A DNA stretch of 35,167 nt, from contig JAEEZC010000242.1 in NCBI GenBank assembly GCA_016288465.1, positions 1 through 35,167 of the forward strand. Direction: 5' to 3'. Source of the DNA: Verrucomicrobiota bacterium. Lineage in GTDB: Bacteria; Verrucomicrobiota; Kiritimatiellia; RFP12; UBA1067. The translations under genes and the position numbers were made by a program. Positions 23,250-35,076 of the stretch are shown here, piece after piece (position 1 is the first letter of the stretch; every line of letters begins with the position of its first letter). The notes below the pieces were generated by a model. It made no database searches. It was given only the letters and a program-made list of their open reading frames with translations, and was not told the DNA's origin.

Positions 23250-23996
23250 TCAGGAGACAGTTCGGCCTGATAAATGGACTGAAGAGGAGTCGGCGACGGT
23301 CATTGACGCCGTCTGAGTGAGGTAGTTTCGGCCTCCGTAGCTGAAAAACGAACCGAGCGGCGGCAGAATGGACTCGTCTGACGAATCAACCGTGCATTCA
23401 AGATCGATGATCCAGTGTTCGTCTCTGACACCGTGAAAGCCGACGTCGCCCCGGCTGTTTGGCTCCATGACGACAACACCCCCGCGAGCAGGCGTCTTCC
23501 GCGTGACGATGCCGGCAACTTGATGCCCCTCGCCGTCAGTCCATGTCACGGCTACAGAACTGTCGAGCGCAAGCGGCACGACAAAGCGCACCGCCATGCG
23601 GAAGTCGGTGTTGTCCGCGTCCGTCCGCTCCATGTCGACATACAAGACCCTGTGGTTCAGAACGGTCAGCCCGTGCAGGGCGTCCTTGCACGTCTCGGCG
23701 GCCTTCGTGACGGTCATGCACGCCGATCTAGGCCGGCGGTTCAGTTTTGGATTTTCGAAGCAAGTGAGCTCCAGCGCCAGGTCTCCTGCCGTCGAAGCCC
23801 CTGAGCCTGGCTGTCTGACGTGCCCCGTAGCCGCCACAAGGACGGTCACTCCCGTCTTGGCGAGGGCTCGTGCCACTTCCGCCGCAGGATCCACATCGTC
23901 TTCCACAAGAACCGCCACAGGCCCTTCGGGAAGGGAGTTGAAAGCCTCTTCCAATGCTTTTGCAACAGCCTTGCACATCTCTATCTGCTCGCTCAT
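23250..23996 (-). CDS. Putative tail terminator with extra C-terminal domain
   Basis: A 248-residue protein, last in the phage operon. Residues 1-125 look like a tail-terminator-type alpha/beta domain (AVAKALEEAFN, then VAVLVEDD, VTVLVAATGH and TCFENPKLNRRP), a class of about 130-150 residues that caps the tail tube. The remaining part (LYVDMERTDADNTDFRMAVR, LPPLGSFFSYGGRNYLTQTA) is a beta-rich domain of unknown role. The start overlaps the previous stop (ATGA). The assignment rests on fold-like pattern and on following a tail-completion protein; it is not certain. Confidence 0.5.
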   Translation of the reverse strand: MSEQIEMCKAVAKALEEAFNSLPEGPVAVLVEDDVDPAAEVARALAKTGVTVLVAATGHVRQPGSGASTAGDLALELTCFENPKLNRRPRSACMTVTKAAETCKDALHGLTVLNHRVLYVDMERTDADNTDFRMAVRFVVPLALDSSVAVTWTDGEGHQVAGIVTRKTPARGGVVVMEPNSRGDVGFHGVRDEHWIIDLECTVDSSDESILPPLGSFFSYGGRNYLTQTASMTVADSSSVHLSGRTVS

Positions 23997-24601
23997 GATA
24001 CCTCCTTTGTAAGTGCTGCGCGAATGGCGGTGGCCATCGCGCCGTTGATTGCGTCCGCCATGCTGTCATCTGATGGCAGCAGATTGCGGTCCTTTTTCAC
24101 CACGACCTGTTTTTTGAGCGTGTACAGCATCTGCGCCTGGTCGTTTCCGAGCCGACCCATAAGCAAGTCCCTTCCCTTGACGCGCCAGACCGTCCACCCT
24201 AGCCGCTGCATTTCGCGCACGGTGTGGCCATATGAGGCGGAGGAAAGCGGAATTGTCAGGCATTTCGCCTTTTTGGCCTGAATCTTCAGGTCCCTGAATG
24301 CCCGGCTTATGCCAGCAATCGGCACGGACACGACGGCATGGTCGGGATAGGTGCGCGACGTGATTCTCGCTGCTCCCTTTTCAAGATGGCCGGTCGCAGT
24401 GGCGGTGAAGCCAGCCGTCCGCTTGTTGAGTCGCTCCACGGTCTTGTGGTGGAACCTCGACTGTCGCCTGATGTGCGTCGCAATCTCGATCCGCGCCGCA
24501 GTCGCGCCTGCGGAGAGCAGCTCGCGCCGCCATATCGGGCCGAGCCGCCCTAGGACAGCGCCAATGTCCGGCCGCACCTTGACGTGGACGTCCAGCTCCA
24601 T
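23993..24601 (-). CDS. Putative tail-completion / virion morphogenesis protein
   Basis: A 202-residue basic protein. The N-terminus ELDVHVKVRPDIGAVLGRLG, followed by helices rich in Arg and Lys and the FHHKTVERLNKRTAGF segment, resembles HK97 gp10-like or Mu gpG-like proteins that finish the head-tail joint. The ATG at 24601 shares one base with the stop of the previous gene (TGATG) and is preferred to the TTG just upstream. It lies between a putative minor head protein and a putative tail terminator, the usual neighbours of this class. Confidence 0.55.
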   Translation of the reverse strand: MELDVHVKVRPDIGAVLGRLGPIWRRELLSAGATAARIEIATHIRRQSRFHHKTVERLNKRTAGFTATATGHLEKGAARITSRTYPDHAVVSVPIAGISRAFRDLKIQAKKAKCLTIPLSSASYGHTVREMQRLGWTVWRVKGRDLLMGRLGNDQAQMLYTLKKQVVVKKDRNLLPSDDSMADAINGAMATAIRAALTKEVS

Positions 24602-25359
24602 CAAAGGCCCTCCGAGATGTCGAAGCCGCAGCTCTCCACCACGCGCCGAAGCTCTTCGGCGTCAGGCGCAAGGGATACGCCCGCCGGCCTTGGAGGCTCT
24701 TCGCCCGGTGCAAGCAGCCCAAGCCGTTCGCATTCCTCCCGTCCGACGTCCTCCCAGCCCATGCCGGACGAGAACGCAAACGGCGGATACGGATTGCCCA
24801 GCGTGTCTTTGAAGCCGCCCGCGCCGTCGCCAAGCGCCTGCCAGATCGGCGATGCCTTCAGCGCCACGAACCTCCCGCCGCGGGCAGCGCCGTCCCAGCC
24901 AACCGCCTCGCCGGCGGCGTTCCACCTCTGCGGCCAGTCCTCGCGCGGTGCTGACCGGCCCTCTAGCCGCGTAAGCTCCCACGCCGGCCATATTCCGACC
25001 GTCGCCGCTGTCTGCTCCTGCAGGACCGCCACGGACGCGGCCATCTGCGTCTGCGTCTCCAGAATGAGGTTCAGACGCCGTATGGAAGCGGGGTTCGAAA
25101 GCCCGCCCTCGTCCTGGGGCGAGTGTCCCATGCGCTCCAGGACTCCGCCAAGGACGTCCCGCGCGGCCGCTTCGCTGATCTCGCCGCTCATCATCCTGGC
25201 GCAGACGTCCCGCACGTCGGCAAGATACGACACAGACGCCATTCGGGCCGAGAAAATCGCCCTCTCAAGCAGCTCTCGCGGGAAGGCGTCACGAATCTCC
25301 ACGCTGCCGAGCGTTGTCGGAAGAAGCTCCTTTACCCTTATGATGTCTTCGGCGGTCAT
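24601..25359 (-). CDS. Putative minor head (head morphogenesis) protein
   Basis: A 252-residue protein. Residues 20-70 (DAFPRELLERAIFSARMASV and following helices) and the middle section (RRLNLILETQTQMAASVAVL, WPAWELTRLEGRSAPREDWP) resemble phage minor head proteins of Mu-like phages. The C-terminal part contains GRFVALKASPIWQALG and GNPYPPFAFSSGMGWEDV, which I recall as a pattern of that protein class. No enzyme motif is visible. The start overlaps the previous gene as ATGA. The assignment is from pattern memory, without a search. Confidence 0.5.
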   Translation of the reverse strand: MTAEDIIRVKELLPTTLGSVEIRDAFPRELLERAIFSARMASVSYLADVRDVCARMMSGEISEAAARDVLGGVLERMGHSPQDEGGLSNPASIRRLNLILETQTQMAASVAVLQEQTAATVGIWPAWELTRLEGRSAPREDWPQRWNAAGEAVGWDGAARGGRFVALKASPIWQALGDGAGGFKDTLGNPYPPFAFSSGMGWEDVGREECERLGLLAPGEEPPRPAGVSLAPDAEELRRVVESCGFDISEGL

Positions 25360-25586
25360 GTCTCGGACTCCTTCCCGGCTTTTTCCTCCTGGCTTTTCAG
25401 CCCGGCCAGCATCTCCGCGAGCTTCGGACGGACGTTGTATGCCATCGCCACGATCTCAGCGCCCCTGGAGCCCGCGCCGAAAGCGGGAGCGCACATGACG
25501 ACAACCTCGCAGAGCTGCGCGGCGATTTCGGCCAGGGCCGCGAACTTCTCGGGCCCGATTTCGGCTGTCTTCCCATTCTCTTCCAT
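25356..25586 (-). CDS. Small phage protein of unknown function
   Basis: A 76-residue, mostly helical, acidic protein. The ATG at 25586 is chosen because AGGAGG lies about 8 bases upstream; a longer frame would open at 25634, but the neighbouring small gene overlaps that stretch. No family is recognised. It is coupled by ATGA to the putative minor head gene. Confidence 0.6.
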   Translation of the reverse strand: MEENGKTAEIGPEKFAALAEIAAQLCEVVVMCAPAFGAGSRGAEIVAMAYNVRPKLAEMLAGLKSQEEKAGKESET

Positions 25587-25599
25587 CGTCTTTTCCTCC

Positions 25600-25710
25600 T
25601 TAGCTGCCCTGGTTGCTCGAAACAGCTGCTTCAAGCGTGTTGGTCGAGTAAGTCACGTTGTCGTTTGTGGTGCGCACGTCTGGCGTGAATGTCCGAATGT
25701 TCGATGCCAT
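25600..25710 (-). CDS. 36-residue phage microprotein
   Basis: A short reading frame beginning MASNIRTFTPDVRTTNDNVT and ending SSNQGS. A strong AGGAGGG ribosome binding site lies about 8 bases upstream and shares bases with the stop of the preceding fibre gene. Its own stop codon touches the AGGAGG of the next gene. Spacing and binding sites support translation, although the product matches nothing I know. Confidence 0.55.
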   Translation of the reverse strand: MASNIRTFTPDVRTTNDNVTYSTNTLEAAVSSNQGS

Positions 25711-25723
25711 TTCGAAGTCCCTC

Positions 25724-26740
25724 CTAGTTCCATGTGGCGACCAGCCGCAACTCGATGCGCGAAACCCAAAGCAAAATCACCGAGCGCGGTGGCTGTCCGT
25801 CGGTTGCATATGTGCTAGATGCGGATTGAGCGTCGGCAATATTGAAACCCAGGTGAGCGTAAACATGGCCGTCGCCGCCGCCGATAGTTGCATCGGTCAG
25901 AGCATTCTTCAGCGACGTCAGCCCGTCGCCCGTAATCTCAATGTCGGCATGGTAGTTGTTGCCGCTCGAATCTAGGTGCCGTTTGAATGCCGCATATCCG
26001 GCGGCTGGCCCGTCCCACGGGTTGTAGGAGGTTGTGTACGCATGATAGCCCGAATCGCCTTGATTCGCGACCGCCACAATGTTCGCCGTTCCGTAGCCTC
26101 CGCCAGTCGTGTCCTGATGGAACTTCGGCGGCATTGCGACCGACGCGAATTTGTATCGCATGACGCCCGCGCTGTTCAACAGCGAAAGGCGGTCTTCCGA
26201 GTAGGTAGTCCCGTTCCACGTCGAAATCATGCACGACGGGTGCCACACGCGCCAGTATGCCTTGAACGCCGTGCAATTCCCGATAGGGAAGGCGTGAAGG
26301 TTGAATTTCAGCAGTCGGAAGGTCGTCGCCAACTCGATGGTGTTAACCACAGCCGTTGAATTGATGGTTTCGTTCGTGTTCACCTTTAGGCGATACGGCG
26401 GAAGCCCTCGCGACCAGTAGGAGAACAGCGCACGCGACCCCGAATGCCAACTCGCATCAGTCATGCCGTTACGAACCCCTATCAGCGCGTTCTTCATCGC
26501 TGTGGCGTCGGCGTCGTTATACCCCATGTAACTTGATGCGGCGTAAGAGGTTTGTTCCCCAAAGACGCAAGCGTTCGCAAACATCTCGCCGGCAGGTGTA
26601 ACAACAAGCTCCTTGTTGTTCCACGCAGTGTTTCCGCTTCGTTGGATGATGAGCAAATGGTCGTCGTCGCATATCAGCGGGTATCGGGAAGCGCCGCTGC
26701 CCGATCCGAGGTCTGTCTTTCTGAGATGCGGAGTCGCCAT
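25724..26740 (-). CDS. Putative tail fibre / tip protein
   Basis: A 338-residue protein rich in Ser, Thr, Asn, Gly and aromatics, with no signal peptide, membrane segment or catalytic motif. Composition and position directly after a fibre gene suggest a fibre tip or receptor-contact protein. Stretches such as HQDTTGGGYGTANIVAVANQ and WNGTTYSEDRLSLL are beta-rich. The start (ATG at 26740) has a GGAG upstream. Function is inferred from context only. Confidence 0.5.
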   Translation of the reverse strand: MATPHLRKTDLGSGSGASRYPLICDDDHLLIIQRSGNTAWNNKELVVTPAGEMFANACVFGEQTSYAASSYMGYNDADATAMKNALIGVRNGMTDASWHSGSRALFSYWSRGLPPYRLKVNTNETINSTAVVNTIELATTFRLLKFNLHAFPIGNCTAFKAYWRVWHPSCMISTWNGTTYSEDRLSLLNSAGVMRYKFASVAMPPKFHQDTTGGGYGTANIVAVANQGDSGYHAYTTSYNPWDGPAAGYAAFKRHLDSSGNNYHADIEITGDGLTSLKNALTDATIGGGDGHVYAHLGFNIADAQSASSTYATDGQPPRSVILLWVSRIELRLVATWN

Positions 26741-26744
26741 TGCC

Positions 26745-28130
26745 TTAGCTCCAAGTCACCTTCACAGGCGTGTCGATCGTGAAGGGCGTCTCGCCGCTGG
26801 AGGTGTAGAGCCGCCCGTGCTTGTCGAAAGTCAGGTCGCGGTAGAAGCCGTAGAGGTTCGTGCCGTTCCACATCGTGCGGGTCTGGACGCGCACCACGAC
26901 GCCGTTCGAGCCGCCAGCCGTCCATGTGCCGCTGTTTGCGGTCGCAGTCCCGGGCGCGGCGTTGGCCAGGCTCGCCACGGCGTTGCCCGGATTCTGCGCC
27001 GACGAACCGCCGTCCTCCCACGACAGAATCGAAGCGTTCGCCTTGATGGTCAGAACCTTGTCGCTGGAAGGCGAAGTTGCAGGAAAAGGAATCAGCTCTG
27101 TCGCGTTATCCGAAGACGTCGGCAGATAGATGCCTATTATCTGGCCTTGCTGGTTAGTCCTCGTCTGCAAGTACGGAAGGCAGTCGCTGTTCCACGCGGT
27201 ATAGTCCGACGCAAGGCTGGTGACGGCGTTGTACGCGGCGTTGCCGGAATGTCCGAGGTTGCCGCTGTTGTCTATCGTCACGAGACAGTCGTGCTGGTGT
27301 CCGGCGATGTTGCCAGTCAGCATCGAAAGCGGGACTTTTCCCGTCGAGCTGAGTTGCGCGACCAGCAATTTCAAGTATCCTACAGTCGTCGCCGTTCCGA
27401 CGGCGCTCGTCTGCAAGTAGCCGGACAGATTGAGGTCGGTGATTGACGAAACCGTATGCGTGTGATTCCCTCGCGCAACTTGATTTTGGCCAGTGCCGAA
27501 TGCGATATGTGAAATCGTCCCTTGGGTGTTGTAGACAAAACCCGTCGAGCTTGTGGGCTTGCGCCAGAACTTGTCGTTCACCCAGCCCATCGTGGCAATG
27601 GCGTTCAGCGTCGTGCTGGTCGAATCGGTCGGAGCCTTCGCCAACAATACGCCATTTGACTGATACGACGATTGCCCAACATAACCGGCCAGCACAAGAT
27701 AGCCCTCACTGGTCCCGTAGATTGCGGCTCGATTTGATCTGTTCGAATTGCGAAAGCGCACGCAGTTGCTTCCGTCGTCGAGATACAATGCTCCTTTGTC
27801 GAGGTATCCTCGCTGGGTGTCCGATGTGTTGCGGATCACGAAATAGCTGTAGGCGTCGGAGACGATTGACAGGGACTGGCCGGAAATCGTCTTCGCGCCC
27901 GTAATCGTCTGGTCGGTGTCCAGCGTGACGTATTTGCCGTCGGCGTAGGACTTCAGCCAGTCGGTGTTTATGGACATGCACGGCGGGTTGTCGGGGCCCG
28001 GGTTGTCGGGCCGGTCGAAGACCAGGCTCTCGTTCGTGCAGAAGTTGGTCAGATACGCGGCCATCCTGTTGAAGGACTCCGCCGCGTCTTTCCCGAAAAA
28101 CCTCTTGTAGCTCTTGAATATCCCGAACAT
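26745..28130 (-). CDS. Putative tail fibre protein
   Basis: A 461-residue protein. A short N-terminal helical part (MFGIFKSYKRFFGKDAAESF) is followed by repeats typical of phage fibres, such as VTLDTDQTITGAKTISG (about residue 67) and GNHTHTVSSITDLNLSGYLQ (about residue 225). A second GHQHD segment lies further on, and the C-terminal region (about 350-461) is beta-rich. The ATG at 28130 is chosen because a purine-rich GGGGGA precedes it; upstream codons give an Arg/Pro-rich stretch unlike the rest. It probably attaches to the tail tip and contacts the host surface. Confidence 0.7.
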   Translation of the reverse strand: MFGIFKSYKRFFGKDAAESFNRMAAYLTNFCTNESLVFDRPDNPGPDNPPCMSINTDWLKSYADGKYVTLDTDQTITGAKTISGQSLSIVSDAYSYFVIRNTSDTQRGYLDKGALYLDDGSNCVRFRNSNRSNRAAIYGTSEGYLVLAGYVGQSSYQSNGVLLAKAPTDSTSTTLNAIATMGWVNDKFWRKPTSSTGFVYNTQGTISHIAFGTGQNQVARGNHTHTVSSITDLNLSGYLQTSAVGTATTVGYLKLLVAQLSSTGKVPLSMLTGNIAGHQHDCLVTIDNSGNLGHSGNAAYNAVTSLASDYTAWNSDCLPYLQTRTNQQGQIIGIYLPTSSDNATELIPFPATSPSSDKVLTIKANASILSWEDGGSSAQNPGNAVASLANAAPGTATANSGTWTAGGSNGVVVRVQTRTMWNGTNLYGFYRDLTFDKHGRLYTSSGETPFTIDTPVKVTWS

Positions 28131-28146
28131 GGCCGATTCCCCCCGC

Positions 28147-28563
28147 CTATGAAACGACCGTGTTTGGGCCGGACGACGCCCCCGGCACGGCAGGGTTCGC
28201 GTCGGTGAAATAGTGCGCGGCACAGCCGCTGAAAAGCGTGTCGTTCTGGTAACAGGCGACCCACTTCTCGGTGAACGTGACGGTCCAGCCGTCGGCGGCG
28301 TTGGTTCTGCGCTTCTGGCAGGTGCACGAATAGTGCTCGAAATAGGCCGTGCCGTAGCTGTTCGTGACCCGCGAAGAAGCCGCCGAGCCGGACTGCGAGA
28401 ACGCCAGTGCGGTCGCCCTCGAAAGGCCCCTAAGCTCGCTGACGCGGGTGCGTATGCGGTGCTTCCAGAAGGTGTCGCCCCATTCGCGCGTCTGGACCTG
28501 CCAGACCTCCGTGTCGTCTACAACCACCCTGTCCGCGAAACTCGCGCTCGTAAGCCATGCCAT
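28147..28563 (-). CDS. Phage protein of unknown function
   Basis: A 138-residue protein with beta-rich N-terminal half (ASFADRVVVDDTEVWQVQTR) and a Cys pair CTC in the middle. GGAGGA precedes the ATG, which lies just beyond the tape-measure stop. Its position after the tape measure is where distal tail or tip proteins are usually encoded, but no family is recognised. Confidence 0.55.
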   Translation of the reverse strand: MAWLTSASFADRVVVDDTEVWQVQTREWGDTFWKHRIRTRVSELRGLSRATALAFSQSGSAASSRVTNSYGTAYFEHYSCTCQKRRTNAADGWTVTFTEKWVACYQNDTLFSGCAAHYFTDANPAVPGASSGPNTVVS

Positions 28564-28565
28564 GG

Positions 28566-30116
28566 TCAGTCCTCCGTTAGCGCCGCCTCGATGTTTTCAA
28601 GCGAATCGGCCGCGCGGCGCGCCTGCTCGGCCGTCTCGAGAGCCGCCTGCTCCGCTTCATGCTCCTGCTCGCGGGCGAGCGCGACGCGCCTGACGGCCTC
28701 GTCGTCGACCGAGAGGTTCTTGGCCGTGCGCCAGTCGCGCCGGAAGCGCAGCTTCTCGAAGTCCTTCTCGAACTGGACTCTGGCGTCGGCCTCGGCGCGC
28801 TCCTCCTCGATCTGCGCCCTCATGGAGTCTTTGTTGCGATACCAGCCCCATGCCTTGGCGACCTCGCCCCTGGCGGCCGCAAGGCGCTTTTCGGCGTCGT
28901 TCCTCTCTTGCAGCGCCGACTGCCAGGCGGCCTTCTCCTCCGCGATCTGCCCGAGGCGCAGCCTGTGCGCTTCGGCCGCAGCGGCCTTCTCCGCCTCCGC
29001 CCGCGCTTGGGCCTCCTGGCGGGCCAGCTCGGCAGCCTCCTTGGCGTTGGCCTCCTCGATCTTCGCGGCCTCGGCGAGCTCGCGGTCGCGGTCCTCCAAG
29101 GTCCTCTTCATCGTGTCTGCGGACTCTTCGGCCTTCGCGGCCTCTTCCTCGAGGTCGGCCATGGCAAGCGCGTGACGGTTCTCCTTGATTCGCTTCTGGA
29201 TGTCCTCGATCTTGGACTCCTGCTCGTCGGCGAGGTTCCATGCGTCGGCAGCGGCGTTGTGGTAGCCGCCGACCTTCTCGTCGATTGAGGGGCCGCCGGT
29301 GAACATCGTCTTGAGACTGTCCCACATCGTGCCGGCGACGCCCATGCCGCCAGCCTCTCGCCGCATCGCTCTGCCCATCCTGATGCCCGTCGCCCTGGCG
29401 TCGTCGCGGGTCTTCTCGGCCTGGGCGAGCTCAGCTTCAAGCCGGCGCCCCTCCGCCTCGAGGTCGGAGCGACGCCTGTCGCGGAGGCGTCCTGCGGTGG
29501 CGTTGTCGAGCTCTGCTCCTTCGCGGTCGTAGCGGGCGTTGATTTCGTCGCGCTCGGCGTCGGTCGTGGCTGCGGCTAGTTCCTGGGCGCGAGCCATCTC
29601 GGCCTGGGCCTTGGCGAGCTTGTTCAGGGCGTTCTCCTGAGCCTCGAACTGCCTGGTCTGGCGCTCGGAGTTCTCCCGGGCCCGCGCCATCTCGTCGGCG
29701 AAGCCCGCGGCCGCGTTTTTGAGGTCGTATAGCTTCGTCTCGGCCTCGACGACGTCCTTGACCATCGCCGGGAAGATTGTGTTGACGAGCTCGCGTATCG
29801 CCTTGAAGAGGGTGATCATCGACGTGAGCGCGGCGCCCGCAGCGCCCCACGCCTTGGCGGACTTGTTGGCGGCGTCGGTAGACTTCGCTCCGAGCTTGCC
29901 CATCTCCTGGGCGGCGGCAGCGAAGTTGCCGCGAAGCGCCGCGCCCAGGGCCTTGAGCGGGGAAAACGCCGCTACAGCCTTCTTGCCGGCCTTTTCGGCG
30001 GCGTCGCCCACCTCGCCGGCGGCCTTCACGGCGGTCTTGGAGACGGCGGCGACGGTCTCGCCGGTCTTGTCGGTAGCCGTGATCTCGTAGTCTACGCCCT
30101 CTTTGATCGTCGCCAT
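28566..30116 (-). CDS. Tape measure protein
   Basis: A 516-residue protein that is almost all helix. It is rich in Ala, Glu, Lys and Arg, with long coiled coils (about residues 130-260 and 305-500). A hydrophobic segment (about 88-118, WGAAGAALTSMITLFKAIRE) is typical of tape measures. Such proteins fill the tail tube and set its length; at about 0.15 nm per residue the tail would be roughly 75 nm, a rough estimate. It is preceded by a protein in the chaperone position and a likely tube protein. Confidence 0.75.
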   Translation of the reverse strand: MATIKEGVDYEITATDKTGETVAAVSKTAVKAAGEVGDAAEKAGKKAVAAFSPLKALGAALRGNFAAAAQEMGKLGAKSTDAANKSAKAWGAAGAALTSMITLFKAIRELVNTIFPAMVKDVVEAETKLYDLKNAAAGFADEMARARENSERQTRQFEAQENALNKLAKAQAEMARAQELAAATTDAERDEINARYDREGAELDNATAGRLRDRRRSDLEAEGRRLEAELAQAEKTRDDARATGIRMGRAMRREAGGMGVAGTMWDSLKTMFTGGPSIDEKVGGYHNAAADAWNLADEQESKIEDIQKRIKENRHALAMADLEEEAAKAEESADTMKRTLEDRDRELAEAAKIEEANAKEAAELARQEAQARAEAEKAAAAEAHRLRLGQIAEEKAAWQSALQERNDAEKRLAAARGEVAKAWGWYRNKDSMRAQIEEERAEADARVQFEKDFEKLRFRRDWRTAKNLSVDDEAVRRVALAREQEHEAEQAALETAEQARRAADSLENIEAALTED

Positions 30117-30117
30117 G

Positions 30118-30157
30118 GGTTAGTTGGTTTTCTGGTTGGCTGGTTTGTTGGTTTTGG
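30118..30157. repeat. TTGG-rich low-complexity tract at a gene junction
   Basis: On the minus strand about five loosely repeated 8-base units built on ACCAA or AACCAG run through the last codons of one gene (KTNKPANQKTN) up to the next start. It may be a small slippage-prone repeat that has extended the end of the gene. Confidence 0.4.
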
Positions 30158-30881
30158 CGGCCTTGACCCTCTTGGCAATGGCCGCCTTGACGAGCTGAAG
30201 GGCCTCCAGCGCCTCGTCAAGCTCGTCCCTCATTGGCTCGGAGGAGCGCCCCATCGCCGCCGAGTACGCCCTGGCGAATGTGTGAAGGTCGTGATAGCAC
30301 CTCGTCATGTAGGCACCGCTCCTGCGCCACATCCACTCGTCGGCCGCGATGCCGGTCTGCGTCTCGAGCCTGGCCGCGAGCGCGGCCCAGTCGGAGGCCG
30401 CCTGCAGCGATTCGTCGCGATCCGCACGGCGAACGCGGCTGCGCAGCCTGAAGACCGTCTCGAGAGCGGCGTCAATCTCCTCCGCCGTCGCTGCAAGGCC
30501 CTTGCAGTAGGCCTTAACCGCCTTTTCAACGGAGCTGGGAGAGTCCAGCCCCTGGAATGCCGCAGGTTCGCGAGCGTTGCCGCAGGCGTAGACGATGGCG
30601 AGCCTGTAGCGAGGGTCGCGGGAGCCCTGCGGGAACATGCGCTCCACCTCGTCGAGCCAGACGCTCGCGCCCGCCGTGAGACGCCAGAACCACTTGCCCT
30701 CCGCAACCCGCACCGGCAGGCCGGCGAGCTCGGCGTTGGCCTCGCGGAAAGGGTCCGCGCACCTCTCCGAGGCGCGGACGAGCGCTACGATGTCATCGTC
30801 GGAAAGCTCGCCACGCTCCACGCCGAAGCGCCTGGAGAGGTCTACGAGAGCCCTGTTGAAGTATGCGGCTGCGCGATCCAT
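30120..30881 (-). CDS. Putative tail assembly chaperone
   Basis: A 253-residue soluble, mostly helical protein (LVDLSRRFGVERGELSDDDI; YRLAIVYACGNAREP). It lies between the likely tail tube gene and the tape measure, the standard place for tail assembly chaperones. No slippery frameshift site is obvious. The C-terminal tail KTNKPANQKTN is encoded by a low-complexity tract. The function is inferred from position. Confidence 0.45.
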   Translation of the reverse strand: MDRAAAYFNRALVDLSRRFGVERGELSDDDIVALVRASERCADPFREANAELAGLPVRVAEGKWFWRLTAGASVWLDEVERMFPQGSRDPRYRLAIVYACGNAREPAAFQGLDSPSSVEKAVKAYCKGLAATAEEIDAALETVFRLRSRVRRADRDESLQAASDWAALAARLETQTGIAADEWMWRRSGAYMTRCYHDLHTFARAYSAAMGRSSEPMRDELDEALEALQLVKAAIAKRVKAAKTNKPANQKTN

Positions 30882-30903
30882 GGCGGCGAATGGTGAGCGG
30901 CCC

Positions 30904-31617
30904 TTAGTTCGAGGAGCCGGTGTCGTGGGCTATGTGGTGCTCGAAGTCGAACGAGGTCGACGTCGCGGCGGAGTTGGAGGGCGTGACGCCCTTGGAGACC
31001 TCGTCCCATTCCGAAGCGTAGTCGTCGGACGTGGCCGCGCCGGTGAGCTCGACGTGCAGCGTCTCCGCGCCGTCGTGGTTCTCGCCGGCAAGCTCGTTGC
31101 CGGAGTGGTCGAGCTCATCGATGTGCTGGCACGAGCAGCTGTACTCGGCGGAGCGGAGGTCGACGACGGCCTCGTCGTCGAGCGCGAAGGCGTCGTCGAA
31201 GTCGACGGGGCAGCCGAAGGCGACGACGGCGATCTTGCCGTCCAGGGAGGGTGTGTAGGTGCGGCAGGAGTTTGCGGCGTGGGCCGTGCCGGCGTCGTGC
31301 CTGTGGCAGTTCACCGTCATCTTGGCGTCCTTCTGCTGACGGTCCCACACGACCCTGAAGGAGTCGATGTGCCAGCCGCCCGTCACTGTGCCGGGCTTCG
31401 GGAAGGCGTAATTGCCCGACGTGGCGGTCGAGCGGTATATGAAGGCCGTCGTCGACTTAGGGTCGTGCAAAGCGCTTGCGGACTCGTCGCCGTCAGAGCC
31501 GAGCTCAGCCGCGCGGGTCTTGTTGGACGAAATCGCTCCGCCGTCCTGGAACGTCCAGCCGGACGGTACGGAGATCGGACTTGTGGGTCCGAAGAACTCA
31601 ATTGTGCCATGTGCCAT
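30904..31617 (-). CDS. Probable major tail tube protein
   Basis: A 237-residue, beta-rich, acidic protein beginning AHGTIEFFGPTSPISVPSGW, with a clear AAGGA ribosome binding site. Two Cys-containing segments (YSCSCQHID, NSCRTYTP) and a His-rich patch (HHIAHD) are visible. Size, composition and position before the chaperone and tape measure suggest the tube protein. The alternative is another tail structural protein. Confidence 0.5.
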   Translation of the reverse strand: MAHGTIEFFGPTSPISVPSGWTFQDGGAISSNKTRAAELGSDGDESASALHDPKSTTAFIYRSTATSGNYAFPKPGTVTGGWHIDSFRVVWDRQQKDAKMTVNCHRHDAGTAHAANSCRTYTPSLDGKIAVVAFGCPVDFDDAFALDDEAVVDLRSAEYSCSCQHIDELDHSGNELAGENHDGAETLHVELTGAATSDDYASEWDEVSKGVTPSNSAATSTSFDFEHHIAHDTGSSN

Positions 31618-31657
31618 TTCGTGTTTCCTTTCGTTTTAGGTTAAGAGGGGGAGTTGG

Positions 31658-32101
31658 TTAGGGGGTTGGGGTGATGGTGACGGTGACTTCGTTGGTGACG
31701 GCGGGGGCGGCGTTCCGGACACGGGCGGCGGCGAGACGCGCCGGCACGCCATTGGTCATGACAGGCGGGGGGAGGTGTGCCGTCTTCGGCGTGGCGCGCT
31801 GGAAGTGGTCGACGAAGACCTTGCCGTCCGCGTAGGTGGTCGTTTTTGTGAGGGTGTTCGTGTCGACTGCCGTCGAGACGAGACGGCCGTGCCATGCCGC
31901 GCGGCCTGAAGGCGTGCCGGTGTCGGGATCTGTTTCGCGATGGTACTTGCGGTTAAGAAGCTGGAGGGCGGCGACTAGGTCGGCCTGCGTCCAGGTGTTG
32001 GTGGTGCCGTCGGAAAGGAGCGTTGTCAGAACGACGTCGTCGGCGACAAGCTGCGGCATACATGCCGCAGCACAGAACAGGGAGAAAAGCAGCTTTTTCA
32101 T
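31658..32101 (-). CDS. Small exported protein in the phage operon
   Basis: A 147-residue protein with a typical Sec signal peptide (KKLLFSLFCAAACMPQLVA, cleavage near residue 21). The mature part is Thr-rich (TTLLSDGTTNTWTQADLVAA), with no known motif. GGAGG lies just before the ATG at 32101, which overlaps the previous stop as ATGA. Exported proteins are unusual inside a tail operon. Function unknown. Confidence 0.65.
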   Translation of the reverse strand: MKKLLFSLFCAAACMPQLVADDVVLTTLLSDGTTNTWTQADLVAALQLLNRKYHRETDPDTGTPSGRAAWHGRLVSTAVDTNTLTKTTTYADGKVFVDHFQRATPKTAHLPPPVMTNGVPARLAAARVRNAAPAVTNEVTVTITPTP

Positions 32102-32793
32102 GGGACCTCCGTTTCGTTGGGGGTTTGAGAGGAGAGAAGCGAGCCGCGGGAGATCGGCGGGCCGTTTGTTATGGCGGCTGCAGGGGCGATGCGGCGGGAG
32201 TCGGCGTATATGCCCGTTCTGTAGGGCATTACAACGGCCTCGATGTTGTTTGTGGACTTGAAGCGCCACAAAACGAACGCGACGCCGTTTGTGTGGACTG
32301 TTGGCGATGGCGACCAGTCGGTGTAGGCGAACCAGTTGTAGTTCGAGGCGTTTGCGTAGGGCACGTCGAATGGCACCGAGATGTCGGCGAATTTATTGGA
32401 GTAGACGGTGAATGAGTTCGCCGACACCTCGGTTAAATTGGAAACGCTCAAGGGACACGCATCGAGATAGAACCACGCCGACGCCGGAACTATCGGATTT
32501 CGGGTGAAGGAGACGTGGACATAGTCGTTGGTGACGAAAGAGCCATCGTTGACAAGGTAGCGGGTAGAGATGTCGGTCCAGGGGAAAGTGATGGTTCCTA
32601 TGATGTGCTTTCCGCCTGCGTAGAAGGTGAAGCCGGCGAAGAAGACGGCGGCCATCGCCTTAGATGCAGGCTTGAGCCTTTTGAAACGCCGCCACATCTC
32701 CGCGAAACCGTAGGCGACGAGCCAGCCGAGCGTGCTGACTGCCGCGATCAGCAGCAGCCACACGAGCGCGACCTTTAGCGGATAGAGGCTCAT
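32098..32793 (-). CDS. Membrane-anchored protein in the phage operon
   Basis: A 231-residue protein with an N-terminal membrane segment (VALVWLLLIAAVSTLGWLVA, about residues 8-28) and a probable second one (about 45-62, AAVFFAGFTFYAGG). A beta-rich C-terminal domain follows (about 70-231), rich in Asn, Tyr and Val. No family is recognised. It overlaps both neighbours by ATGA. Its C-terminal domain would face the periplasm if the two segments form a hairpin and the N-terminus is outside; topology cannot be settled here. Confidence 0.6.
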   Translation of the reverse strand: MSLYPLKVALVWLLLIAAVSTLGWLVAYGFAEMWRRFKRLKPASKAMAAVFFAGFTFYAGGKHIIGTITFPWTDISTRYLVNDGSFVTNDYVHVSFTRNPIVPASAWFYLDACPLSVSNLTEVSANSFTVYSNKFADISVPFDVPYANASNYNWFAYTDWSPSPTVHTNGVAFVLWRFKSTNNIEAVVMPYRTGIYADSRRIAPAAAITNGPPISRGSLLSSQTPNETEVP

Positions 32794-34778
32794 TGGACGA
32801 CCTCCCAGGTGATGGAGCCGTTGTTGTAGACCGGGCGGACCTTGTGGACGCCGTCGGTGCAGAGGACGCCGCCATCGAACTTGACGGGCGCTATATTGCG
32901 GATGTAGGTCTCGCCGCCGGCCATGTAGGAGGCCTTGACGAAGAGCGACGGCCCGGGCGACTTGCGCTGCACCGTCGCGACATACGCGCCGGACGTGCCG
33001 GACCAGTCGACGGTCGCTATGCAGTCGTCGTCGGTCTCGGCCTTCCAGTTCGGCGTTTGGAGGTCGCCGGTAATCTCAAGTATCGGGTGAGAGTCTGCGA
33101 TGACGGAGTAGGTGATGGTGCATGTCGAGCCGCTCACGCTGATGCCGTCGGCGTCAGCCCCGATCACGCGCTTGTCGCCCTGGACTATCTCGAACTGCGT
33201 CTCGCCGTCGCCGTCAATGACGCGGAAGGCCCCGTTGGTGCTGCCGCCGATCGTCGCGACGCCGGAGTTGCACTGCAGCACCCAGACCGCACCGTCGCTT
33301 GTGACAGTGCGCTGATAGGCCATTCCGGAGGCGACGAGGATGTTGGAGGAGGAGAGCTGCGTATAGCCGTCGGGCGCATAGCCGCCGGTCTCGCTGTCGT
33401 ATGCGCCCCACGCTCGGTCGGCCTTGTGGGCAAGCTCGGCCGTCACGTTGGTCTTGAAGACGTGGTTTTCGGCCTCGAACTTGTCCCAGCGAGCGCCCTC
33501 GCGCCAGACTCGCAGCCATTCGTTGGAGACCTGAACCTCGACATAGGCCTCGGGCGTGTGGACGACCGAGTCGTAGTTGGTCACGACAAAGCGAGCGTCT
33601 TCGCCGTTAAGGACCGCGCCGATAGCCGCAACCTGAGTCGCCAGCGTCTCGCCCTGAGACTTGGGGTAGAGGGAAGAGGCCGTTGAGTCGGTGTAGTTGG
33701 TCGCGGACTGCGCCGCGACGGCGAGACTCTGGGAGAGGGCGGCGGATGCGGAGTCGGTGTAGTTTGTCGCGGACTGGGCCGCGACGGCGAGACTCGCATC
33801 GATCGCCGACTCGTACACGACTTTTTCGAAGACGACGAGTATGCTGCAGGTTGCGAATACGCATCGCATCATTTCGTCGGTGACGTCGCCTGGCATTGGC
33901 GCAACTTGCGGTTCCTGCATGTACATACTGCCGTAAAGATGGGACCACACAGCGACCTCGTCGTCGCTGCACGTCACGAACGACGCTGAATTTGTCGTTG
34001 TTGTCGGCGTATCCCCATAGACCTGGGCCCCGCCGAACATTGCGCCTTCGATCTTGTAGAGCTTGTTTGTGGTGCTGCCGCTGTTCGTCACCTTGTAGAC
34101 GCATTTTACTTGACGGAAGTCTGCCTTTTTGTCGGCTAGAGCGTCTATGTCGGCTCCCCAGAACAGCTTCGCGCGATAAGCGGGGTATTTCGTCGAATTC
34201 AGGCCAAAGCGAAAGACCAAATTCGTAGCATACTCACCCGCCACGGGGGAAGCCACTGTCGTAGTATGTGCAACCGTGCCGTTCGGCCTCATGTAGTCAT
34301 AATCGACGCTCCAGTTTTGGGCATAGCGATACGGCGACCCGATCGACACGACATCCGACGGCAACGAAGGGAAGACCCAGTCGGAGAAGCCCGCGAAAGC
34401 CTCGGCGCGCGTCAGCTTGTCTGCCACCGCCGCGTCTGTGTAGTTTGTCGCGGACTGTGCCGCGACGGCGAGACTCTCGGAGAGGGCAGCAGAGGCGGAG
34501 TCGACGTAGTTGCTGGCGGCGGTGGCTGCGGAGGAGATTTCGGCGGGCCAGGGGGCGTTGAGGACGGTGAGGGCCGAGAAGTCGAGAGCCACCACCGGCG
34601 GTGCGACCATGTTCGGGCAGAAGCCCGGCGAGGGGAGCATTCGGAGGGTGCCGTTTGCGCGGTAGATGGTTTGGGTAATGGGGAACGGGGAATGGGGAAT
34701 CGGGAATGGAGGCCTGGACGAAGAAGCGGTAGGAGCTTGCGCCGACGTCGTTGGAGGGCGCGAAGGTTGCGTTGTCAA
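32790..34778 (-). CDS. Fibre-like protein body (main frame of a split gene)
   Basis: A 662-codon frame forming the body of a long fibre-like protein. Real coding begins after about residue 30; the Pro/Ser/Thr-rich start is the wrong-frame reading of the upstream part. Repeats SLAVAAQSATNYTD (three copies) are heptad-like and typical of trimeric phage fibres. The C-terminal half is beta-rich, and GDGETQFEIVQGDKRVIGAD lies near residue 520. It ends in SITWEVVQ and overlaps the membrane-protein gene. The N-terminal domain and signal peptide lie in another frame (34297-35049), separated by a 7-base repeat at 34673-34707. The ATG at 34778 may not be used. Confidence 0.6.
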   Translation of the reverse strand: MTTQPSRPPTTSAQAPTASSSRPPFPIPHSPFPITQTIYRANGTLRMLPSPGFCPNMVAPPVVALDFSALTVLNAPWPAEISSAATAASNYVDSASAALSESLAVAAQSATNYTDAAVADKLTRAEAFAGFSDWVFPSLPSDVVSIGSPYRYAQNWSVDYDYMRPNGTVAHTTTVASPVAGEYATNLVFRFGLNSTKYPAYRAKLFWGADIDALADKKADFRQVKCVYKVTNSGSTTNKLYKIEGAMFGGAQVYGDTPTTTTNSASFVTCSDDEVAVWSHLYGSMYMQEPQVAPMPGDVTDEMMRCVFATCSILVVFEKVVYESAIDASLAVAAQSATNYTDSASAALSQSLAVAAQSATNYTDSTASSLYPKSQGETLATQVAAIGAVLNGEDARFVVTNYDSVVHTPEAYVEVQVSNEWLRVWREGARWDKFEAENHVFKTNVTAELAHKADRAWGAYDSETGGYAPDGYTQLSSSNILVASGMAYQRTVTSDGAVWVLQCNSGVATIGGSTNGAFRVIDGDGETQFEIVQGDKRVIGADADGISVSGSTCTITYSVIADSHPILEITGDLQTPNWKAETDDDCIATVDWSGTSGAYVATVQRKSPGPSLFVKASYMAGGETYIRNIAPVKFDGGVLCTDGVHKVRPVYNNGSITWEVVQ
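33692..33728 (-). repeat. 37-bp direct repeat, copy 1
   Basis: One of three near-identical 37-bp copies (with 33758-33794 and 34439-34475) sharing GCCGCGACGGCGAGACT on the plus strand. It encodes the fibre repeat SLAVAAQSATNYT. Confidence 0.6.
33758..33794 (-). repeat. 37-bp direct repeat, copy 2
   Basis: Second copy of the fibre-gene repeat, lying 66 bases from copy 1. The close spacing would favour deletion or gain by recombination. Confidence 0.6.
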
Positions 34779-35049
34779 GGCGCCACCAGGCGTTGCCCAT
34801 GCCGTTGGTCTGGTAGAAGACGGCCTCTATGGTCGCGTTGGTAAGGGGGATGCCGTAGGCGCGGAAGGTGGGCTGGAAGGTGGCTGTCTCGCCCTGGTAG
34901 AGCGAGAACGCCTGGGCCTTGGCGTCGGGCCAGTTGCAGACCCACTGCAAGGGCGCTGCAGAGAGAGTGAATAGCGAAGAGTGAATAGTGAATAGGTTAA
35001 GGAGGGAAAGGAAAATCCCACACCGGGTAGATGCGTTGTGCTGTTTCAT
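34297..35049 (-). CDS. N-terminal part of the split fibre-like gene
   Basis: A 250-residue frame. A signal peptide (GIFLSLLNLFTIHSSLFTLS) is followed by a natural-looking domain (about 30-115), AFSLYQGETATFQPTFRAYG to YRFFVQA, resembling the immunoglobulin-like N-terminal domain of phage baseplate or fibre proteins (BppU type). After the heptamer at 34673-34707 the sequence becomes Arg-rich and out of frame with the fibre body, so the last about 125 residues are probably not native. The ATG at 35049 is chosen because AAGGA lies 9 bases upstream; the ATG at 35058 touches it. Removing 7 bases would fuse this part to the 32790-34778 frame and give a protein of about 745 residues. Confidence 0.6.
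   Translation of the reverse strand: MKQHNASTRCGIFLSLLNLFTIHSSLFTLSAAPLQWVCNWPDAKAQAFSLYQGETATFQPTFRAYGIPLTNATIEAVFYQTNGMGNAWWRLDNATFAPSNDVGASSYRFFVQASIPDSPFPVPHYPNHLPRKRHPPNAPLAGLLPEHGRTAGGGSRLLGPHRPQRPLARRNLLRSHRRQQLRRLRLCCPLRESRRRGTVRDKLHRRGGGRQADARRGFRGLLRLGLPFVAVGCRVDRVAVSLCPKLERRL
34439..34475 (-). repeat. 37-bp direct repeat, copy 3
   Basis: Third copy of the fibre-gene repeat, about 650 bases from the other two. It encodes SLAVAAQSATNYTD near the start of the fibre body. Confidence 0.6.
34673..34707. repeat. Heptanucleotide tandem repeat at the frame break
   Basis: Five 7-base units on the plus strand: GGGTAAT, GGGGAAC, GGGGAAT, GGGGAAT, CGGGAAT. The tract sits exactly where the N-terminal frame and the fibre-body frame of the split gene should meet. 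Seven is one more than a multiple of three, so each unit gained or lost changes the reading frame. Confidence 0.85.
34967..34994. repeat. Heptanucleotide tandem repeat in signal-peptide codons
   Basis: Four 7-base units: GTGAATA, GCGAAGA, GTGAATA, GTGAATA. On the minus strand they encode most of the hydrophobic core of the signal peptide (LFTIHSSLFT). The unit differs from that at 34673-34707. Confidence 0.8.
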
Positions 35050-35076
35050 AGTTTTCATTCCTTTACCTATTCACTA
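34986..35076. repeat. 11-bp inverted repeat around the fibre gene start
   Basis: TAGTGAATAGG at 34986-34996 is the exact reverse complement of CCTATTCACTA at 35066-35076. The arms enclose the ribosome binding site and start codon of the split fibre gene. In mRNA they could pair across a loop of about 69 bases. Confidence 0.55.

Follow-up and report, generated by a model that had tools for sequence, protein, structure and literature searches.

A fibre-like gene whose reading frame breaks at a tract of 7-base units raises the question of whether the number of repeat units sets the frame of this gene and, if so, whether the gene can be switched on and off. The locus lies in the window, i.e., the whole stretch of 35,167 nucleotides analysed here; this is C304 among the contigs of a metagenome-assembled genome (MAG) of 3.5 Mb and 83% completeness, hereafter G000. 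The original prediction held that the gene is a contingency locus caught in the OFF state with five units. The features of the locus are listed in Table 1.

Table 1. Features of the fibre gene and its neighbours, in window positions
Feature	Position	Strand	Evidence or remark
5' part of the fibre gene: signal peptide and start of the BppU-like beta-sandwich domain, ending YRFFVQAS	34708..35058	(-)	homologues continue in one frame
Second heptamer array, in frame	34966..34993	(-)	ATTCACT ATTCACT CTTCGCT ATTCACT; in the core of the fibre gene's signal peptide
Degenerate heptamer array, 5 units	34672..34707	(-)	ATTCCCG ATTCCCC ATTCCCC GTTCCCC ATTACCC + A
Remaining domain (TIYRANGTLRMLPSPG...) and fibre body to the stop, in another frame than the 5' part	32790..34671	(-)	codon score, profile
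Next gene, with N-terminal membrane segment	32098..32793	(-)	conserved fibre neighbour in relatives
Small gene, signal peptide (MKKLLFSLFCAAACMPQLVA)	31658..32101	(-)	conserved fibre neighbour in relatives

Frame break at the heptamer tract

The five units that had been placed between two frames are present as described, according to the sequence itself, TRF and shuffled controls. The tract has the top tandem-repeat score in the window (55, with 5.4 copies and 83% match by TRF), and TTCCCNNTTCCCNNTTCCC, with at most two mismatches, matches the window three times, always within the tract, at an expectation of 0.09 and with 0 of 100 shuffles reaching three. On the minus strand, the array (units at about 34673-34707) is flanked by TACCGCTTCTTCGTCCAGGCCTCC before and AAACCATCTACCGCGC after; it stands directly after the YRFFVQAS codons, with AAACCATCTACCGCG next on the 3' side. 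Four variants occur among the five units, and units 2 and 3 are the only identical neighbours. The upstream ORF is 34297..35058 (minus strand) and the downstream frame 32790..34778 (minus strand). The codon-usage score passes from frame 0 to frame 1 across the tract, the new frame being kept for 1.8 kb to the stop at 32790, and the profile of the homologous domain matches the gene in two pieces, model positions 2-95 and 96-140, which abut at the tract. The claimed frame break is thus borne out, as homology and coding signal change frame exactly there.

A unit length of seven bases cannot be divided by three, and the number of units therefore sets the reading frame, so that 1, 4 or 7 units are in frame and 5 units are out of frame. 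The expectation that losing one unit or gaining 14 bases would restore the frame agrees with this arithmetic (4 and 7 units), and the joined frame, put at about 745 codons, comes close to the 754 codons, stop included, that the gene would have with 4 units. No second lesion was found elsewhere in the fibre gene by homology, codon score or ORF check. By arithmetic, a single lesion placed at random in the 2.3-kb gene would fall within the 36 bases of the tract with a chance of about 1.6%. A change in unit number of the array is, in our assessment, quite likely to have caused the frame break.

Two translational routes around the break were considered and set aside: an internal restart of the body frame at the TTG at 34778 would give a product without signal peptide, and a programmed -1 frameshift at CCCAAAC, at the end of the tract, would enter the wrong frame. 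It is known that +1 slips occur at CCC-N. The tract has a 0-frame CCC followed by C (e.g., GTT CCC CAT), and a +1 ribosome shift on such C-runs would enter the body frame, so that some full-length protein could be made even with 5 units. However, a programmed shift should show up in relatives as a retained out-of-frame form, none of which has one, and the relative G154 (see below) is in frame; such leaky expression is therefore regarded as extremely improbable.

A four-unit allele in a related genome

An in-frame allele one unit shorter, as the original prediction implied, does exist, between species. The homologue in G154, a Kiritimatiellae MAG from goat abomasum (contig JAFPUX010000442.1, G154:C373; loci L096/L120), carries four units, GTTCCCG GTTCCCC GTTCCCC GTTCCCC, at the same site, followed by AAACCATCTACCGCG as in G000, and its reading frame stays open through EASVPGSPFPVPQTIYRANG, a run of 255 codons that reaches the end of the contig. 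Comparing the tract in related genomes, as had been proposed, thus revealed that relatives do not all have five units. Upstream of the tract, the two proteins are 78% identical, indicating that G000 and G154 are different species. Just two unit-number alleles, one in frame and one out of frame, have been seen, each in its own species, and as such they demonstrate divergence, not switching. In both alleles, unit 1 ends in G, compared with 0 of 98 units in the other G000 arrays. This rare first unit, common to both, suggests that the arrays share ancestry, and they are probably homologous and differ by one unit. Independent insertion of an array in each genome is disfavoured by the same first unit and by the identical 3' flank. 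The fibre-gene array is nearly the sole array of its type in the G154 genome, so that either the gene may have been transferred from one lineage to another or this contig, a 3-kb piece of a MAG, could be mis-binned.

Among 41 distinct homologous domains, heptamers in the hairpin loop occur only in G000 and G154, the loop being usually short, and the frame is broken within the domain only in G000. G130 was rejected as a second broken case, as its match is confined to the domain's second half, the contig ends there, and the remaining loop is without heptamers. In the G010 homologue (L010/L123), the loop holds another kind of dispersed repeat, which follows YRFFIQAA, looks palindromic and is in frame; partial copies of it lie elsewhere in G010 and at nine places in G000. 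This in-frame repeat supports the loop being permissive. Searches with the fibre, alignment A2 and the tract-flank DNA pattern found no relatives on viral contigs, and none were found in phage records; phylum-wide, the tract-flank pattern matched other sequence only.

Domain fold and gene neighbourhood

Of the 162 genomes that represent the order, 42 have the N-terminal domain of the fibre, and the named relatives are Kiritimatiellae and Verrucomicrobia MAGs, several of which come from the guts of goats and sheep. The G154 domain, modelled with AlphaFold, is a beta-sandwich (mean pLDDT 90), in which the tract residues 83-92 lie between strands 74-82 and 93-104, supporting a placement of the tract in a hairpin loop of the predicted domain. 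The structures that match it best come from phage baseplates, that of TP901-1 among them. VIA-align gave Z 8.1 to 4v96 chain AL and Z 6.1 to 3uh8 (ORF48), and since a Z near 8 may mirror a common arrangement, the BppU-like fold is best read as resemblance rather than membership. Foldseek hits to the same model had E above 0.01 in PDB and about 1e-4 in BFVD, where the hits carry the name BppU domain protein. No convincing Pfam or PHROG family matched the domain, and for nine domain members, searched with E up to 1, neither database returned a BppU hit. In its modelled fold the domain thus resembles the N-terminal beta-sandwich of BppU of phage TP901-1 and relatives by structure comparison (Z 8.1, 4v96 AL), a likeness that is supported as resemblance and not as family membership; unlike BppU, the G000-type proteins have signal peptides, sit in bacterial MAGs and lack a Pfam or PHROGs sequence match. 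The BppU-like fibre originally proposed is supported in part, by the likeness of fold and by two neighbours with viral-contig relatives, but the BppU sequence profiles do not match.

Relatives share the gene order of fibre, membrane protein, small secreted protein and one further gene. For a nearby gene that reads as tape-measure-like from its sequence (28566-30116), and for the gene next to it, relatives occur on viral contigs, and these relatives, together with the kept gene order, make the gene module look prophage-like or phage-derived. The prophage-like module covers 23250-35058 on the minus strand of the window and also holds a tail-repeat-like region at 26745-28223. The fibre and one neighbour have signal peptides, an uncommon feature among the structural proteins of phages. 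A DDE-type transposase gene (PF01609; 197-1534, plus strand) lies close to the left window end.

The dispersed heptamer family

Beyond what the first reading had seen, the fibre gene holds a second array, in its signal-peptide region, and about 32 further arrays occur genome-wide. The G000 genome has about 33 similar heptamer arrays including the fibre tract, with 66 pattern matches compared with 0 for the reversed control, and nearly all of them are outside convincing genes. Many relatives also carry heptamers, in some genomes with as many as several hundred matches, for which the reversed control gave mostly few or none. The heptamer type of the second array, ATTCACT, is rare across the G000 genome. 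Heptamer-like DNA, CTTCCCTTTTCCCTTTTCGCC (peptide LPFSLFA), was also seen in signal peptides of relatives' neighbouring genes (L123 4590-4650 and 5800-5870 in G010; L011 in G015), hinting that heptamer-type repeats recur in signal-peptide coding regions. The one other clear intragenic copy in G000 is an in-frame array (ETGNRERGTAKH) inside an enzyme-like gene, read from its sequence as Tat-signal and metallophosphoesterase-like (L074 = G000:C165, 2083-2115), which suggests a tolerated insertion rather than a switch design.

Several G000 arrays lie at most about 350 bases from contig ends (C260, C206, C4, C327, C145), indicating that heptamer repeats may break assembly. One could therefore suppose that the true fibre gene has four units and that the assembler added one from the near-identical arrays at many loci, some 33 similar arrays, several of them at or near contig ends, suggesting that the repeat disturbs assembly. 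Yet the 36-base tract is far shorter than ordinary short reads, and its private first and last units, ATTCCCG and ATTACCC, tie it to unique flanks; a tract so short and so anchored makes an assembly error very unlikely.

Comparison with known repeat systems

The closest known repeats are the heptameric G-quadruplex repeats GGGAATC / GGGGA(C/T)T of Xanthomonas and Nostoc described by Rehm and colleagues (PMC4692102), together with the cyanobacterial short tandemly repeated repetitive sequences. The Xanthomonas/Nostoc class is dispersed, 89-93% intergenic in Xanthomonas, and prefers four units, and phase variation was deemed unlikely for it (PMC4692102). The G000 arrays resemble this class in their units, which read GGGGAAY and GGGAATC on the G-rich strand, in the small number and degeneracy of these units and in the dispersed, mostly intergenic distribution (PMC4692102). 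The plus strand of the fibre tract reads GGGTAAT GGGGAAC GGGGAAT GGGGAAT CGGGAAT, which includes GGGAATC, at least two G-rich heptamers of the class patterns GGGANTN / GGGGAYT and at least four G-runs (GGGTAATGGGGAACGGGGAATGGGGAATCGGG; PMC4692102). Judged by its sequence, the tract is not gene-specific and belongs to a dispersed, G-quadruplex-type heptamer class. It is unlike the Xanthomonas/Nostoc repeats in that this copy, from ruminant-gut Kiritimatiellae, is intragenic and its unit number differs between in-frame and out-of-frame alleles. In the literature searched, no paper connected tandem repeats with Kiritimatiellae, and searches for repeat-switched tail fibres returned nothing relevant.

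Alternatively, the array could have a role in the nucleic acid itself, as G-quadruplex or in transcription pausing, with the effect on the frame being incidental. The five plus-strand G-runs have short loops and form a predicted G-quadruplex pattern at 34673-34704, and the Xanthomonas/Nostoc class folds into quadruplexes in vitro (PMC4692102). Such a role, however, leaves the one-unit difference from the in-frame G154 unexplained, and the G-rich strand is the template, so that the mRNA has C-runs; we consider it unlikely.

The other known kind of system is the NeuO poly-psi switch of prophage CUS-3 in E. coli K1, with 2-93 copies of the heptamer AAGACTC just after the start codon and with established switching (PMC3046976). 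As in NeuO, the heptamers in G000 are in a coding region and unit number modulo 3 would set on or off (PMC3046976); NeuO is prophage-borne and the G000 fibre gene sits in a prophage-like module. In contrast to NeuO, G000 has five imperfect units, not AAGACTC, in a loop about 117 codons (about 350 bases) into the gene, and it is a candidate switch only. The fibre tract thereby belongs both with the dispersed G-rich heptamers and with the repeats that set a reading frame, each of them a known kind. What is new here is the predicted in-frame 4-unit allele at the same site in G154 versus 5 units in G000.

Discussion

Intragenic change in heptamer unit number, giving an OFF allele, is likely the best explanation of this locus as a whole. 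In the proposed mechanism, one of the dispersed G-rich heptamer copies would occupy the tip of a hairpin loop between beta strands in the BppU-like domain of a secreted, phage-tail-like fibre. With 1, 4 or 7 units, ribosomes that have read the signal peptide would continue into the fibre body, and with 5 units they would not, so that the window would hold a 5-unit OFF allele and G154 a 4-unit ON allele. The change in unit number most likely came about by strand slippage, which we infer, or by unequal exchange between units, and full-length protein would presumably be lost in the OFF state.

Decay offers a different account: the gene would have become a pseudogene recently, within a prophage-like module that is ageing, and the added unit would be a simple irreversible frameshift. 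It is consistent with the single allele in G000, with the imperfect tract, with a repeat class not known for switching (PMC4692102) and with the finding of no G000 paralogue carrying the domain that would show the gene to be needed. On the other hand, the 626 body codons from 34670 have no internal stop or other frameshift, and the neighbouring genes are open with their order conserved in relatives, both of which speak mildly against decay. We regard it as less likely than not, and it is not the reading that we favour.

Whether unit-number change at this tract is also actively reversible is doubtful, although such a phase switch has some plausibility. The locus has features of a contingency locus in that a coding-region tandem repeat, with a unit length not divisible by three, lies at the frame break. 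The degenerate tract, with one identical adjacent pair, makes fast reversible switching uncertain, and the copy in the fibre gene may be an accident, given that repeats of this class are scattered and lie mainly between genes, in G000 as elsewhere (PMC4692102). The contingency locus of the original prediction is therefore upheld in part: the gene is out of frame at 5 units and has an in-frame 4-unit relative, but the tract is imperfect, the repeat is dispersed, and its class is doubted for phase variation (PMC4692102). A broader scenario, speculative and on present evidence unlikely, is that dispersed heptamers act as portable frame switches in Kiritimatiellae, entering permissive loops and signal peptides and toggling phage-tail-like surface proteins, here with two arrays in one gene.

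The fibre tract provides a concrete, testable candidate for a frame switch in an uncultured gut lineage, and it connects a class of heptamers thought to be regulatory or inert with a surface gene whose alleles are in frame in one case and out of frame in the other.
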